Part shown: positions 32,804 to 43,534 of the stretch, piece by piece | Layout of the letters: each line of letters begins with the position of its first letter | Position numbering within the stretch: the stretch's first letter is position 1 | Assembly (NCBI GenBank): GCA_944323155.1 | Contig: CALURL010000013.1 | Coordinates: 1-53,667, forward strand | From: Candidatus Gastranaerophilales bacterium | GTDB lineage: Bacteria; Cyanobacteriota; Vampirovibrionia; Gastranaerophilales; Gastranaerophilaceae | DNA: 53,667 nt | Reading direction: 5' to 3' | Notes under the pieces: generated by a model | Told to the model about the DNA's origin: nothing | Databases searched by the model: none | Seen by the model: only the letters and a program-made list of their open reading frames with translations | Translations under genes and position numbers: made by a program

Positions 32804-34591
32804 TTATTTATTTTGTCCGACTTGATTTCGTCCGTTATTTTTTGCATTATAAAGGCGTTTGTCTGCCGTTTCTATTATGCTTGGTGCATCTTCTCCGTCA
32901 AACGGGAATGTCGCAACTCCTAAGCTTATTGTTACATTGCTTTCTTTTCCGTTTGATAGTTTAAACGAATGTTCTGCTACACGCTTACAAATTTTTTCTG
33001 CTGTAGAATAAGCCTCATCTTTATCTGTGTTTGGAAGAATGATACTCATTTCCTCTCCACCGTAGCGGCAAACTATATCAGTTGCACGGACATTTTTTTT
33101 CAAAGTAAAGGCAACCTGTCTTAAAACTGCATCTCCTGACTGGTGGCCGAAAGTGTCGTTAAAGCGTTTGAAAAAGTCTATATCAATAATTATTAACGAA
33201 AAATTATTATTGTAACGTTTTGACTGTTCAACCTGCATGCGCATTTGTTCTTGAAAATATCTGTGATTATAAAGTTCTGTCAAGCCGTCTGTTGTGGCGA
33301 GTTTGTATTGCGCTTCAAAATCTCGTGATTTTATTAAATATTTGACTATGAATGCTACTGTGAAGGCTAAAATTGAGAATATCAACGGGTAAATAACTTC
33401 AAGCCATAAATCTCCAAAACGCATTGCATAATATGATATTAATAAATACATAAAGTAAGATGATAGAGAAACAAGTGAGGCTGCAAATGCTGAACTCAAG
33501 CCCATAACTGAAAATGCAATTATACTTGCTAAAACTAAACTTGCTATAATTGTAAAACTTTTATCTGCTTTTCTTATGAAATTGTTGTCAATAATATTGT
33601 TTACGTAAGTTGCCTGAACTTCTACTCCCGGGTAAACTTTGCCTGTTGGAACGGTTTTTATATCGAATAGACTTGAGGCTGTTGTGCCAAAATAAATAAT
33701 TTTATCCTTAAAATTGTAATTAAGCGCATTTTTTTCACCATTTAGTGCCCTAATCAATTGGTACATCGGAATATATGTATAAGTCCCTGCAGGCCCATAC
33801 CAGTTAAGAATTGCACTTCCATCTTTATCCAGAAATATCTCTCTGTTACCTGCGTGCAGGATTGAATTATTCGTAATTGATAAGCCTTTAATATCCTGTT
33901 TTTCTGTGTCAGATAAGTATTTCAATCCTACTTTAAGCGCAAGCTGGGGATAGAATTTCCCTTTATATTTTACAACAACGGGCATTTTTCTTAAAACTCC
34001 ATCATCAGAGCGGGAAACATTAATAATTCCTATATTCTCGCTGTTTTCCAAAATGCCATCAAGTATTGTTCTGCAATTTGTAAATGCCAGAGTTGAAAAA
34101 TCAATTTTTGAATTATTTTTTACATCAATTGTCAATTTTTCAGGAAGCTGCGGAGGAATTCTTAATTCTTCCGGCTGGTTATCAAAATTCATTGATGTAA
34201 ATACATTATTATATTTTTTGAATGAGTTTATCAGTGACAAATCTGCGTTATTGTCGCTTTTCATTGATTTAACAAACATTAAATCAAACGCTATAATATT
34301 TGGATTTTGTAATTCAAGATAATCAATTAATTTTGCGTAAATATCCCTTGGTAAAGGCCATTCTCCATAGTGATCCAGAATATATTCATAGCTTGCATCA
34401 TCTATTGCAATTATAACTATATCCTCATTATGCTTCTTTACACCCTCGTTAATCATTATGCTCTGGCGTAAATCAAATGTTCTGTTTTCGACAACATTTA
34501 TAAAATTATTAAGGTTTGCATTTTTCAAGATTAAAAACGCAAATATAGCAAAAATTATTAAACCCAGCGTGTATGAAATTTTTTTGAACAT
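32804..34591 (-). CDS. CHASE2-GGDEF diguanylate cyclase
   Basis: A 595-residue membrane sensor. One helix (about 9-24), a large periplasmic CHASE2 domain (about 30-330, with VIIAIDDASYEYI and GEWPLPRDIYAKLI), then three helices (about 345-415) and a C-terminal GGDEF domain (about 435-590). The signature is GGEEM at about 518-522: the second residue E is accepted, but the final F is M. The RxxD product-inhibition site is intact five residues upstream (RATD). It probably makes cyclic di-GMP. It lies beside prepilin genes, whose pili are commonly under c-di-GMP control. GGGAGG precedes ATG. Confidence 0.88.
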   Translation of the reverse strand: MFKKISYTLGLIIFAIFAFLILKNANLNNFINVVENRTFDLRQSIMINEGVKKHNEDIVIIAIDDASYEYILDHYGEWPLPRDIYAKLIDYLELQNPNIIAFDLMFVKSMKSDNNADLSLINSFKKYNNVFTSMNFDNQPEELRIPPQLPEKLTIDVKNNSKIDFSTLAFTNCRTILDGILENSENIGIINVSRSDDGVLRKMPVVVKYKGKFYPQLALKVGLKYLSDTEKQDIKGLSITNNSILHAGNREIFLDKDGSAILNWYGPAGTYTYIPMYQLIRALNGEKNALNYNFKDKIIYFGTTASSLFDIKTVPTGKVYPGVEVQATYVNNIIDNNFIRKADKSFTIIASLVLASIIAFSVMGLSSAFAASLVSLSSYFMYLLISYYAMRFGDLWLEVIYPLIFSILAFTVAFIVKYLIKSRDFEAQYKLATTDGLTELYNHRYFQEQMRMQVEQSKRYNNNFSLIIIDIDFFKRFNDTFGHQSGDAVLRQVAFTLKKNVRATDIVCRYGGEEMSIILPNTDKDEAYSTAEKICKRVAEHSFKLSNGKESNVTISLGVATFPFDGEDAPSIIETADKRLYNAKNNGRNQVGQNK

Positions 34592-38552: not shown

Positions 38553-38581
38553 TTGTTATAACCTGTCTGCTGTGATATAAT
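38553..38581 (+). promoter_or_regulatory. Promoter for leaderless zinc-ribbon/STAND gene
   Basis: TTGTTA (38553-38558), 17 bases, TGA-TATAAT (hexamer 38576-38581). TCAGGT then separates it from ATG 38588, six bases. The mRNA should start at the ATG. Confidence 0.7.
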
Positions 38582-38587
38582 TCAGGT

Positions 38588-41500
38588 ATGGAATGTCCAA
38601 AATGCGGTTTAGAAATTGATGATAAGGCATTAGTGTGTCCGAATTGTAAAAAGGTGCTTAAATTAGTCTGCCCTATTTGCAAAACGGTTAACACTACTAA
38701 TGTCTGCAAAAAATGCGGTTATGTAATTATTACAAAATGCCACAAATGCGGCAAGGTAAATCAGACCGCTGCCAAAAAGTGCAAAAAATGCGGCTTTGAT
38801 ACAGAAAAAAGTGTTATTCTGAATGAAGCTAATACTGATGAATTTGTCCTTATGACAATTGATTTCCCAAATATGGATCAAATGAAGTCACTTCTTGGCT
38901 CTGCAAAACTTTATAATAAGTTTAAAATTAATTTGGATAAAATTATTCTTGATTATACGAAATCTGTTGGTTTGCGCAGGCAAATTGTTAATAGTACTTA
39001 TTTAATCAGGTGCGATAAGGATTATACTTTTAAGGTTTCCTCTGAAACTGCTATTAAGACGGCTGTTGAACTTTTAAATCGTATTACTGCAATGAATTGC
39101 AAGCTTACAAAGAAGAAAAATGCTACTATTCGTACAAATATTTTTCTTTTAAAACGTTCAATTTCTGATGCTCCTTATGATTACCAGTCTGGTATGAATA
39201 TAAGTTTGATAAATCAGTATGCAAAGAATAAAGATGAGAAAATTTTAAATACATTCCAAATTCTGACTGACCAAGCAGTCTGCGATGTCTTAGAAGCTGA
39301 TTATAGGGTTACACCGCTTAATTCGGTTGTGGTTAATGATGAAATGGTTATGTTTTATGAAGTTGACGTAAAAGATCTTGTTAAAGTCGAATATCCTGAG
39401 GAAGAAGAAAGCGAAGAAATAAAAATACCTAATTTTGTTCAAAATATGCTTGTGGAACAAGATAAGCTTGATGGTATTGCACTTAATAAACTTGATGCTC
39501 AAGAGGATCCTGATGCAATTTACGATATAGAAACTATTAATTTTGCGGAAGTTAATTGTGACTTTGTAAGGTGTGAGAATATTGATGTTTTTTCTGTCGT
39601 TGCAAATAAATTAAAAACTACTCCTAAAGGTATTATTGCAATCAAGACGGAAGATCTTTATAAGCCTTATTCGCTAAAATTGTTGAATATGATTGAAGGT
39701 TTAAATATTTATAGCAATATAATTACTTTAACCTGTTACGATGAAATGAAATATTCTCCATATTCATTCTTTAGAGATTTAGTGTCTGCTATTTTTGAAT
39801 ATACAGTTTCACAAAAATTATTTTCAAATAATGATTTTTCGATGTTTAAAAATGTCGATCCTGACGGCATGGTTAAGGATTTGATAACCCTGCATTCAAG
39901 AGATGTTGATAATGCGGAAGATACAAGATATGTTTATTTTGATATCTTTTTAACGCTTTTGCAGGCTATTCCAAATACTCTTATATTCATAGAAAATTTT
40001 GAAAAAATTGATTCCAGCTCTTATGATGTTCTAAAATATCTTTTTGAAGCTTTTGATCAACTTGAGATAAGTTATCTAATTTCTTATGAAAAAGGTTTCT
40101 CATTGCATAAAGATGCTCACTTCTTATTAACCAGAGAAAATTATACAGAAGTTACTCTCAAACCTACGCCTTTTGAAAAAATGATTGAGGAAAATAAATA
40201 TTATTATAGAAATATTCTTGATAATTTTTATTTTCAGCGTATTGCAAAATATTCTTGTGGAAGCATTTTATTTATTGATATTGCAATTCAGTATTTAATA
40301 GAATCAGAAATATTTGTTGCCAAAGACGATTGTATTGAGATGATTAACCCAAAAACTATTATCATCCCGTCAACTCTGGAACGCCTGATGAAACGTCGTT
40401 TAAATCTTTTGAAAGATGATCCTGAAGCTCTGAAATTTTTAACATCAGTTGTTCTGCTTGGTACAAGAATTGATGTCGCAACTATTGAAAGTTTAGGTTT
40501 TGAAAATGTTACTGAAATAATTGATAAACTTACTCAAATGGGTTATGTTTATTTTTATAATAACTGCATGTATTTCCCTAATTATAATCTTTTAAGAGCG
40601 TGTATATTAGAGGTAATTGCTCCTGTCACATTAAGGGATCTGGCTAATGAATTATTTGTGAAAGTCTTTAATTATAATATGCCTAGCCCTGTTAAGGCAT
40701 ATTTATATGACCTTCTTGGCGATACTGAATATGAACGTGCAGAGTGGGAAAGTCTTGCACAGGTAAATTTATCGCTTGGTGATTTTAGCGCTTATCTGAA
40801 TTGTACCCAGAAAATTCTTGAGCTTTTGGATAAGAATGCTGACCCAAATTCTCAGAACGCTATTGAAGAATATAAACTGCAATTATATGAAAATATTTCT
40901 AATAATCTGTATGATTATGTTCCGGATAAGACTTCTGATATCGCTGAAATAACTTTGAAAAATCTTGAAAAAGCAAAAGATGCTGAAAAAACAATAAAGC
41001 TTTGTAACAAGATGATTCAAGGCAATTTGATTACCGGAAATTATACGCATGCATTAGAGCTTACTCATAAAGTGCTTTCTCTTCTTCCGCCATCATCACT
41101 AAGCCCTGACGCTCCTAATTATAATAGTTATTTCTTCTTGATGTCGTTAGTGCATATTCAAATTCTATTTAATATTGGCGCTTTGAATGACTGTATGGAA
41201 GTTGGATTTAAGGTTTTAAATGTTGTATCTGAAAATAGTATTGCAAAACTTAAACCGGAATATATTTCAGAAGAAGAATTCAGGCTTCTTCTAGTTGATG
41301 CAATTGGTTATGTCGCTCTTGCTAATGTTCTTATGTTAGCAGGAAATGTTCAGGACTTTTTAAGAATTGTAAGGGAAGATTTCAAAGATGTTCCTAAATC
41401 TTATGATATATTTATTGCACTTCAAGATATGATACATGGCTATGCACCAAGTGTGCAGGTTCAGGAAATTGCCCCAAATGATAAATTCACAGGTGTTATT

Positions 41501-42073
41501 ATTCATTTGATGAATGCATTTTTAGACTTTAATGGCGATTATATTAGGTTTGCTGAAGAAATTTACAAGGCTAAAATTCTTGCGAAAGTTAATGCTTTGC
41601 ATCAGCTGGAATTGTTCGCTGATTTATTTATTGGTGTGGCTTATATGAACATTGCTTCTTACCAAAAAGCAGATTATATTATTTATAAAATCATAAAAAC
41701 AACTAATAATAATGGAATGACTACTTTGCTATATGTGGCCTGGTATATGATGAGTGAGTTAAAACTTAAGCTGCACAAATATGAGACTGCTTATGGTATT
41801 GTAAACAATTCTTTAATCCAGTTGGAAAAAAGTAATTTGACAACAGAATACTTGTTAATGCTCTTTAAATATAATATGTTTAAAGTGCTTATGTATCAAA
41901 AACAATTTGATAAAGCAGAAATTTGTATCGAACAGGCAAAATATCTTGCAGCAAAATATAGTATTAATTTCATGTTTGATACAAATCCTGATAGTTATCT
42001 TCCTTTAGAAGAAGATAATATTGATAATAATGATGATAATAGTGATATGGCAACAATAGACGATCTTGGCTAA
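38588..42073 (+). CDS. Zinc-ribbon, cyclase-like, STAND-like ATPase and TPR-type protein
   Basis: A 1161-residue protein. Three zinc ribbons open it: C3/C6/C17/C20, C28/C31/C40/C43 and C51/C54/C65/C68. Residues about 84-280 resemble a degenerate class III nucleotide cyclase domain (VLMTIDFPNM, a ~190-residue span), which lacks obvious metal-binding aspartates. Residues about 340-600 match the layout of a STAND/AAA ATPase, but the P-loop is not seen (KTEDLYKPYS sits where GxxGxGKS is expected), while LIFIENFEKID looks like a Walker B relic. The remaining ~550 residues are helical repeats, TPR-like. Cyclase-AAA-TPR fusions usually act as regulators. This one may be a scaffold that has lost catalysis. 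glgA follows after 15 bases, so a role in glycogen control is a hypothesis. Confidence 0.7.
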   Translation: MECPKCGLEIDDKALVCPNCKKVLKLVCPICKTVNTTNVCKKCGYVIITKCHKCGKVNQTAAKKCKKCGFDTEKSVILNEANTDEFVLMTIDFPNMDQMKSLLGSAKLYNKFKINLDKIILDYTKSVGLRRQIVNSTYLIRCDKDYTFKVSSETAIKTAVELLNRITAMNCKLTKKKNATIRTNIFLLKRSISDAPYDYQSGMNISLINQYAKNKDEKILNTFQILTDQAVCDVLEADYRVTPLNSVVVNDEMVMFYEVDVKDLVKVEYPEEEESEEIKIPNFVQNMLVEQDKLDGIALNKLDAQEDPDAIYDIETINFAEVNCDFVRCENIDVFSVVANKLKTTPKGIIAIKTEDLYKPYSLKLLNMIEGLNIYSNIITLTCYDEMKYSPYSFFRDLVSAIFEYTVSQKLFSNNDFSMFKNVDPDGMVKDLITLHSRDVDNAEDTRYVYFDIFLTLLQAIPNTLIFIENFEKIDSSSYDVLKYLFEAFDQLEISYLISYEKGFSLHKDAHFLLTRENYTEVTLKPTPFEKMIEENKYYYRNILDNFYFQRIAKYSCGSILFIDIAIQYLIESEIFVAKDDCIEMINPKTIIIPSTLERLMKRRLNLLKDDPEALKFLTSVVLLGTRIDVATIESLGFENVTEIIDKLTQMGYVYFYNNCMYFPNYNLLRACILEVIAPVTLRDLANELFVKVFNYNMPSPVKAYLYDLLGDTEYERAEWESLAQVNLSLGDFSAYLNCTQKILELLDKNADPNSQNAIEEYKLQLYENISNNLYDYVPDKTSDIAEITLKNLEKAKDAEKTIKLCNKMIQGNLITGNYTHALELTHKVLSLLPPSSLSPDAPNYNSYFFLMSLVHIQILFNIGALNDCMEVGFKVLNVVSENSIAKLKPEYISEEEFRLLLVDAIGYVALANVLMLAGNVQDFLRIVREDFKDVPKSYDIFIALQDMIHGYAPSVQVQEIAPNDKFTGVIIHLMNAFLDFNGDYIRFAEEIYKAKILAKVNALHQLELFADLFIGVAYMNIASYQKADYIIYKIIKTTNNNGMTTLLYVAWYMMSELKLKLHKYETAYGIVNNSLIQLEKSNLTTEYLLMLFKYNMFKVLMYQKQFDKAEICIEQAKYLAAKYSINFMFDTNPDSYLPLEEDNIDNNDDNSDMATIDDLG

Positions 42074-42088
42074 AGAAAGAGAGGGATT

Positions 42089-43534
42089 ATGAAAGTATTA
42101 TTTGCAGCTGCTGAAGTGGCACCATTTTCTAAAGCAGGAGGATTAGCAGATGTTGTTGGAAGTTTGCCAAAATATATTGAAAAAGATGCTGAAATAGCAA
42201 TATTCACTCCATTGCATGGCTTAATTGATGTTGATAAATATGACATAAAAGAGTTAGAAAATTCTGAATTGTGGTTGACCTTTGGTAATCAGGGGCATAA
42301 ATTCCGGCTTTTTATGTGTAAGCTGCCGGGAACTAATATTAATGTGTTTTTTGTTCATAATGATTGGTATTTTACTTGCTTTAAAGAAGTTTATCCAAAA
42401 TGGCTTGATCCTAGATATGAACATGAGAGATATATTGCTTTTTCTTTAGCAACTTTAGAATATGCAAAACTTTTAAATTTTCGTGCAGATGTTATTCATG
42501 CAAATGACTGGCATACTGCAATGATTCCTGTTTATTTAAAAAGCAATTACAGATATGATAATTTTTGGAAAAATACCAAAACAGTTTTTGAAATTCATAA
42601 TCTAGCTTATCAAGGTGTTTGGTTTGAAGATGTTTTGGATTTTGCAAATATGCGCAAAGATATTGTTTATAATGAATGGGGAGTAGAACATTACGGCAAA
42701 GTAAACTGGATGAAAGGCGCGATTAATTATTCTGAAAAAGTTGTTGCAGTATCTCCGACTTACGCACGTGAAATTCTTACAGGTGAATACGGTGAGGGTA
42801 TGGATTATACCCTGAGAATGAACCAGGGAAAACTTGTTGGAATTCTAAACGGCATAGATTACGATGTTTTTAACCCAAAAACTGATAAGTCTATTGTTAA
42901 AAGATATGATGTGAAATCTTTAAATCATAAAGAAGCTAATAAAAAGAAAGTGTGTGAAGAATTTGGCTTAAAATATAATGCAAATAGACCTTTGTTTGTA
43001 ATGGTCTCCCGTCTTGTAGAGCAAAAAGGGCTAGATTTAATAAGAGAGGCTGAAAACGAACTTAAAGGATTAGAGGCTGACTTTGTATTTTTAGGCAGCG
43101 GTAATAAGGATTACGAAAATCTTCTAATATGGCTATCTAATAATAGTTCAAATATAAGGGCATATATTGGTTATAGGGGAGATTTGGCAAATCAAATTTA
43201 TGCCGGAAGTGATTTTTATTTAATGCCTTCACGCTTTGAACCGTGCGGATTAAGCCAGTTAATTGCTATGAGATACGGCTCATTACCGGTAGTAAGGGCT
43301 ACCGGCGGTTTGGAAGATACTGTAACTGGTTTTCCAATGCAGGACTCTACAGGATTTAAATTCTGGGGATACGACGGCTGGAGCATGATGCAGGCAATAT
43401 ATTGTGCTTTAGGTGTTTATCACGATAAGTATACATTTAATGCAATGAGAAATACTGCTATGCAGGCTGATTTTTCTTGGGCTAAAAGTTCAGTACAGTA
43501 TTTGAATATGTATAAGGAACTTGCTTCAAACTAA
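42089..43534 (+). CDS. glgA: Glycogen synthase (ADP-glucose type)
   Basis: A 481-residue GT5 enzyme. The ADP-glucose binding loop K15-A-G-G-L is in PFSKAGGLADVVGSLP. HANDWHTAMIPVYLK near residue 140-155, EIHNLAYQGVW, and the C-terminal SRFEPCGLSQLIAMRYG with TGGLEDTV are standard. The length matches bacterial GlgA. It makes alpha-1,4-glucan from ADP-glucose. It lies 15 bases after the zinc-ribbon gene, with AGAGAGGG as ribosome site, so both share one message. No glgB/C are in the window. Confidence 0.96.
   Translation: MKVLFAAAEVAPFSKAGGLADVVGSLPKYIEKDAEIAIFTPLHGLIDVDKYDIKELENSELWLTFGNQGHKFRLFMCKLPGTNINVFFVHNDWYFTCFKEVYPKWLDPRYEHERYIAFSLATLEYAKLLNFRADVIHANDWHTAMIPVYLKSNYRYDNFWKNTKTVFEIHNLAYQGVWFEDVLDFANMRKDIVYNEWGVEHYGKVNWMKGAINYSEKVVAVSPTYAREILTGEYGEGMDYTLRMNQGKLVGILNGIDYDVFNPKTDKSIVKRYDVKSLNHKEANKKKVCEEFGLKYNANRPLFVMVSRLVEQKGLDLIREAENELKGLEADFVFLGSGNKDYENLLIWLSNNSSNIRAYIGYRGDLANQIYAGSDFYLMPSRFEPCGLSQLIAMRYGSLPVVRATGGLEDTVTGFPMQDSTGFKFWGYDGWSMMQAIYCALGVYHDKYTFNAMRNTAMQADFSWAKSSVQYLNMYKELASN

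Follow-up and report, generated by a model that had tools for sequence, protein, structure and literature searches.

A conserved pseudo-enzyme encoded beside glycogen synthase in Gastranaerophilales, with a tail-less Zorya-like motor as its candidate partner

The giant protein and its predicted folds

We begin by considering contig CALURL010000013.1 of a Candidatus Gastranaerophilales bacterium (assembly GCA_944323155.1). Its 53,667 nucleotides (nt) are called the window here, and they are the complete contig C13 from a genome of 1.79 Mb. The subject of this study is a window gene for a giant protein with three zinc ribbons, followed directly by the glycogen synthase gene glgA (Table 1); ruvB and the gene for an LL-diaminopimelate aminotransferase are its upstream neighbours. 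We refer to the giant protein and its relatives as family A. According to our analysis, family A retains two enzyme folds from which catalysis has been lost, and it may serve as an adaptor of a membrane motor related to that of Zorya systems. The original prediction, made from the letters of the window, had already described an open reading frame (ORF) of this length, the three C4 ribbons and the short gap to glgA; the coordinates, the Pfam ribbon matches and the invariant cysteines all agree with it.

Table 1. Positions of the family-A gene, its protein parts and its near features in the window (residue numbers are those of the window protein)
Feature	Position	Strand	Basis or remark
Family-A giant protein gene	38588..42073	+	1161 residues, ATG start; ORF confirmed
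Three C4 zinc ribbons, residues 1-72	38588..38803	+	Pfam DZR, Zn_ribbon_3; 12 Cys in 74/74
Pseudo class III cyclase domain, residues 84-272	38837..39403	+	Predicted structure; catalytic residues unconserved
Pseudo STAND ATPase domain and following helical arm, residues 318-720	39539..40747	+	Structure matches
Former P-loop, residues 354-362 (TEDLYKPYS)	39647..39673	+	Alignment with P-loop paralogues
Walker-B-like segment FIENFEKID, residues 467-475	39986..40012	+	Alignment
Helical TPR-like C-terminal part, residues 721-1120	40748..41947	+	Weak TPR_2; TPR matches in relative L114
glgA, ADP-glucose-type glycogen synthase, 481 residues	42089..43534	+	TIGR02095 6e-149, above cut-off; 15 nt downstream
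Promoter-like site (TTGTTA, 17 nt, TG-x-TATAAT)	38553..38581	+	Ends 6 nt before ATG

The ribbons of the window protein are made up of six CxxC pairs (at residues 3, 17, 28, 40, 51 and 65) and match Pfam DZR (E 3.5e-9) and Zn_ribbon_3 (E 3.9e-7). The conservation count in Table 1 refers to an alignment of 74 family-A proteins, which is used throughout. Two loci are left out of the protein alignment or of the link counts given below, namely L045, where the contig stops behind the gene, and the truncated L070; L002, L003 and L032 do not belong to family A. Beyond the ribbons, the Pfam scan recognises no cyclase and no ATPase in the window protein, Pfam and NCBIfam together return zinc ribbons and marginal rows only, and phmmer and profile searches of the PDB give only ribbon and marginal TPR matches.

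AlphaFold models, built from 46 close relatives, are confident and cover residues 70-300 and 290-760. The first region (mean predicted local distance difference test score, pLDDT, 83.4) has the topology of a class III cyclase. Foldseek gives 132 matches for it at E <= 0.001 (best 1.3e-7), and the 50 listed are all cyclases; in VIA the Z-scores are 17.1 to CyaB (over 170 residues, with a root-mean-square deviation of 2.8) and 16.2 to the cyanobacterial CyaC, and the likeness extends over residues of about 75-265. The second region (pLDDT 89.6) is matched by Foldseek to MalT (E 1.9e-7) and to the STAND-TPR protein 6mfv (E 9.2e-7), with VIA Z-scores of 17.6 (6mfv), 16.7 (MalT) and 16.1 (Apaf-1). 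Family A resembles these STAND ATPases in fold over residues 331-760 and in having a probably helical C-terminal part. Both a cyclase-like span and a STAND-like span without a P-loop had been proposed beforehand, and the predicted structures contain both folds. The proposed TPR-like tail fares less evenly, as TPR_2 matches the C-terminal part weakly in the window protein (E 0.06) and better in the relative L114 (E 4.5e-6).

Lost catalysis and kept constraint

The absence of a P-loop is best judged against family B, a paralogue group with the same zinc ribbons that is found across the order Gastranaerophilales. At the P-loop place GK[ST] occurs in none of the 74 family-A proteins, whereas all 21 family-B proteins of a first set have GxxxxGK[ST]. 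The AAA_16 and TPR models match family B. The window genome carries one copy (L085:3019-6045, contig C14), which has a P-loop and no cyclase-like part. In a second family-B set (n = 23) all but one truncated protein keep GK, and six have N or D replacing S/T; such an Asn or Asp occurs in the family-B proteins of genomes G011, G025, G029, G030, G031 and G035. The two families share ribbons, STAND domain and a TPR part that is putative in family A, and they can be aligned over the ATPase part, but family B has kept its P-loop, several of its members lack a cyclase-like part while some have one, and it is present also in genomes without the motor pair ZorAB described below.

What stands at the former P-loop in family A is a new motif, Y-x-P-Y-[ST] in most members (Y358 in 61, P360 in 64 and Y361 in 58 of the 74). 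The outgroup protein L030 retains a fossil P-loop, GETNTGKL; the GELKIGKS of L014 is situated elsewhere in the protein. At the Walker-B-like acidic pair E469 is kept in 68/74, and residue 470 is N in 55/74 and D in 18/74. Family A differs from MalT, 6mfv and Apaf-1 in having no Walker A and, in most members, a Walker B that seems to have turned to E-N.

The catalytic motifs of a class III cyclase, which we take to be two metal-binding Asp and a transition-state Arg, were located from the alignment together with the hairpin in the AlphaFold model. The first metal position, residue 92, is D in 44/74 and E in 20/74. The hairpin reads N135-S136 in the window protein, with D at 135 in 26/74 and at 136 in 3/74, and the place of the Arg (residues 208/209) reads I-N, with R at 209 in 3/74. 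Neither the metal Asp pair nor the transition-state Arg is conserved among the 74 proteins; the second Asp and the Arg are what set family A apart from cyclases of the CyaB/CyaC kind. As a side observation, the window encodes at 32804-34591 on the reverse strand a CHASE2 and GGDEF protein, a possible diguanylate cyclase, in the same genome as the dead cyclase domain.

Is the protein, then, a relic in decay? The median ratios of nonsynonymous to synonymous substitution rates (dN/dS) are 0.009 for the ribbons, 0.031 for the cyclase-like part, 0.014 for the pseudo-STAND part and 0.033 and 0.025 for the remaining segments; they come from 15 close pairs, with 6-13 usable per segment and dS high and near saturation, which makes the values approximate, yet they lie far below 1. 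The dead domains are under strong purifying selection, and because dN/dS is so low and a new conserved motif occupies the former P-loop, they are repurposed and not decaying. The loss of the catalytic motifs would suit a relic; it is refuted by the ratios of ~0.01-0.03, by the new motif and by the fact that nearly all relatives have kept a long open frame, and we assign this reading practically no probability. The domains had been described beforehand as decayed and the architecture as reused for a scaffold. The catalytic residues are indeed lost, the word "decayed" is misleading under such selection, and the scaffold fits well with constrained dead folds.

A dead domain may still bind a ligand. 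Family A could be a stand-alone cytosolic sensor, similar to MalT or BcsE, whose STAND and cyclase domains bind a nucleotide, a maltooligosaccharide or a second messenger, and MalT is among the best structural neighbours. BcsE of cellulose secretion is described as a dead RecA-like NTPase joined to a dead cyclase-type domain, acting as an adaptor in a glucan pathway and sensing cyclic di-GMP in polysaccharide synthesis (PMC7439463). Set beside that description, the likeness to family A is one of concept only, that of dead NTPase and cyclase-type domains as an adaptor: BcsE has other domains and other partners. The P-loop and the cyclase catalytic sites are unconserved in family A, and a stand-alone sensor leaves the co-occurrence with ZorAB unexplained. 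We consider such a sensor quite unlikely.

A ZorA/ZorB-like motor pair

We turn our attention to the 29 whole-genome family-A loci (L001 and L004-L031). In 11 of them (L016-L021, L025 and L028-L031) two genes, for proteins of ~300 and 233 residues, lie upstream of and divergent from family A, with an additional ORF in between at L017/L120. These loci fall in three families (f1, f4 and f5), two of which are other than that of the window. The tested pairs match the PADLOC models of ZorA (E 1e-20 to 5e-31) and ZorB (E 3e-50 to 9e-56), and NCBIfam agrees with ZorA/ZorB matches below its cut-offs, which marks them as distant homologues. This ZorA/ZorB-like pair, which is of the MotA/MotB type, is a more general partner of family A than glgA.

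The pair has the membrane core and the OmpA-like domain of the Zorya motor. In ZorB the OmpA motifs and the membrane-helix Asp, presumably the Asp of the ion path, are kept in 17 of 17 proteins. ZorA, in contrast, is short: its length is 293-309 residues (n = 23), against 383-729 positions in the NCBIfam models, and it has no long cytoplasmic tail. It ends exactly in D/N-x-x-D-[DENK]-L-F in 16 of the 23; three have a close terminal variant, and in the other four the motif stands 4-6 residues short of the end. When tail-less ZorA was sought outside the order in a sample of 244 genomes of the phylum, in which other classes are thinly represented, all 91 genomes with a match fell in the family of the window. 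As a side observation among the relatives, ZorB has beside it, in 11 of the 28 loci examined, a member of one gene cluster, which is DUF711 in both cases tested.

Zorya motors are known as phage-defence machines, and family A with ZorAB could accordingly be an unrecognised Zorya variant in which family A is a sensor or effector adaptor. The ZorA and ZorB models of defence libraries do match, STAND proteins are common in defence, and Avs structures are among the structural matches. The pair is, however, retained throughout its clade, where it is missing only rarely and occurs as a single copy, whereas defence genes are patchy, and the tested neighbours are mostly housekeeping genes. Among 10 selected neighbours no ZorC, ZorD or ZorE model matches (whole genomes were not searched for them); two of the 10 weakly match the candidate PADLOC families PDC-M43B and PDC-S12, and there is a marginal E1-E2 row. 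Moreover, the long C-terminal tail that this ZorA lacks is described as important for Zorya function and defence (PMC11890865). Altogether a defence role appears improbable.

Does the pair go together with family A where the genes are not adjacent? Among 59 relatives ZorA is found in 30, namely in all 29 that have a full-length family A and in G010, whose family-A protein (L137, contig C1) has neither zinc ribbons nor a P-loop and which has ZorAB. Across 286 genomes of the order, a first count gives 191 with both, 7 with family A only, 4 with ZorA only and 84 with neither; with G010 and G165 reassigned to family A, these become 193, 7, 2 and 84. Genomes are taken as A-positive at E <= 1e-150, a threshold set by a gap in the distribution; G010 was reassigned on reading (no P-loop, no ribbons) and G165 solely by a match in a 1050-codon frame. 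One genome without family A, G210, has a different ZorA (E 5.9e-23). There, on contig C10 (L211, L233), the ZorA/ZorB pair of this different kind lies ~8 kb from a family-B gene.

The divergence of the proteins can be compared in the same manner. In a comparison of 22 genomes, family-A distances have a correlation of 0.93 with those of ZorA (partial correlation given RpoB, 0.88), of 0.80 with those of ZorB (0.71) and of 0.39 with those of GlgA (-0.02). In a set of 20 genomes with paralogue B as a further control, the partial correlation of family A with ZorA is 0.86 given RpoB and 0.77 given B, and that with GlgA is -0.08 and -0.10 respectively. The raw correlation of family A with ZorA is 0.93-0.94 across both data sets.

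The link to glgA, the adaptor reading and the transcript

In 19 of the 29 whole-genome loci glgA lies directly downstream of family A. In a second set glgA is next in 51 of 52 loci, the remaining locus stopping at a contig end; this set was picked by similarity to the window protein, is biased to near relatives and shares genomes with the first. The start of glgA could be placed in 64 loci drawn from the two overlapping sets, of which 63 have it within 50 nt of the family-A stop and 43 have it overlapping the stop by 1 or 4 nt. The other 10 whole-genome loci have no such link, among them the two deepest of family A (L030 and L031). Furthermore, of 29 genomes searched for glgA 26 have it, whether or not they carry family A, and several genomes, such as G004, G018, G020, G023, G027 and G033, have glgA and no family-A gene. 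The family-A tree shows the link as a derived trait that was lost or gained several times, and on the GlgA tree the linked group contains two lineages; in G013 and G017, which have a distinct GlgA lineage, the two genes overlap too. The link to glgA is thus real and tight, but it is derived, is confined to one clade and does not define the family. The link to glgA on which the original prediction rests is conserved in that clade and not in the family as a whole.

These observations bear on a role in glycogen metabolism. Family A could mainly be a regulator or scaffold of glycogen synthase, for example by binding and tuning GlgA, with the motor connected by shared ancestry alone. The adjacency in both locus sets, the closeness of the placed starts and the overlap with the distinct GlgA lineage speak in its favour. 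Against it are the unlinked loci including the two deepest, the genomes with glgA and no family A, and the divergence of GlgA, which does not follow family A as that of ZorA does. We regard this as unlikely; the glycogen-sensing or organising role first suggested for the window protein is possible and is not the best-supported one.

We favour the reading that family A is a pseudo-enzyme put to new use as the adaptor of a Zorya-like ion motor without a tail, that it presumably binds this motor directly and that one clade has also coupled it to glycogen synthase; we put the probability of this reading at about one half. It is supported by the constrained dead folds, the neighbourhood of the motor genes, the near-perfect co-occurrence and the divergence correlated with ZorA. 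Family A would be a cytosolic protein of Gastranaerophilales, with an architecture in common with the P-loop-bearing family B, that has probably lost ATP and nucleotide catalysis and kept the folds under strong selection. It would cooperate with an ion-driven ZorA/ZorB-like membrane motor whose ZorA has no long tail, lying beneath it and probably docking through the conserved C-terminal peptide of ZorA, D-x-x-D-[DE]-L-F. A helical protein of the TPR type whose sensor and switch domains are dead would lend itself to use as a docking platform, and the conserved end of ZorA would be a natural peptide ligand for it. In place of the tail, family A may relay the state of the motor, or signals from the envelope, to the cytosol. 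In the clade of the window, the coupling to glgA could tie glycogen synthase to the complex or merely to its dose. Glycogen synthesis would then be one output of the complex, or be made in proportion to it, and this is the least certain step.

Several points weigh against the adaptor reading. Physical contact between family A and the motor is our inference. In the window genome the ZorA/ZorB genes stand on another contig (L125:6609-8230, C26), and since they do so the pair was invisible in the window. Seven genomes have family A and no ZorA, of which six have no ZorB match and G245 has weak ones, and G095 has ZorAB and no family A; assembly gaps could be the cause of both kinds. The co-occurrence is largely clade-wise, with 3 changes per trait on the rpoB tree, and the supported independent pairs on that tree, 2 of 2 concordant, are too few for significance. 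Finally, paralogue B, which is unlinked, also correlates given RpoB (0.61 with family A and 0.60 with ZorA in the 20 genomes). Because paralogue B correlates with family A too, shared species history accounts for part, not all, of the signal between family A and ZorA; only the excess of that correlation over the one with paralogue B is counted here. The paralogue-B control also rules out RpoB as a sufficient control for shared history.

A bolder version of the adaptor reading, possible though doubtful, is a three-component envelope machine found only in these non-photosynthetic gut cyanobacteria. In it, a tail-less, ion-driven Zorya-like motor anchored on peptidoglycan would present five ZorA C-terminal peptides on which the giant pseudo-enzyme docks. 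As adaptor, the latter would take over from the tail in trans and inform metabolism of the ion-motive force or the state of the wall, with co-translated glycogen synthase as the output.

What is new here is the pairing of a conserved pseudo-enzyme with a motor that had not been expected as its partner; the kinds of component are already known. The open-licence literature of PubMed Central (PMC) gives no paper on Melainabacteria together with Zorya, none among those listed that joins Gastranaerophilales or Vampirovibrio with Zorya, and nothing on this system under double zinc ribbon with cyclase and TPR, or under pseudoenzyme with STAND. A widespread lineage with a tail-less motor and a pseudo-enzyme companion would show how a motor is reused and how a signal passes without the tail. 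The paralogue pair, with and without a P-loop and with a fossil intermediate, would allow the study of how STAND ATPases and cyclases become scaffolds. In gut bacteria that are abundant but mostly uncultured, the system would also connect glycogen synthesis with an ion motor in a concrete way that can be tested.

As to its expression, the family-A gene seems to have a promoter of its own. The extended -10 element (Table 1) is placed such that transcription would start at the ATG; the promoter-like site ends 6 nt before this codon, and the mRNA is therefore probably leaderless. From the spacing of the genes, family A and glgA are likely to share one transcript. The promoter scan of the window as a whole is not above chance, with 35 sites found and 32.5 expected. 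When 53 distinct family-A starts among relatives are compared with 743 other ORFs, TATAAT stands at -13 to -11 in 32 of the former and in 28 of the latter, and one of these 28 is a family-A gene with an earlier ATG. As a separate observation, TATAAT upstream of first ATGs is most frequent at -12 in these genomes, with 19 cases at exactly -12 in the 743 ORFs outside family A.

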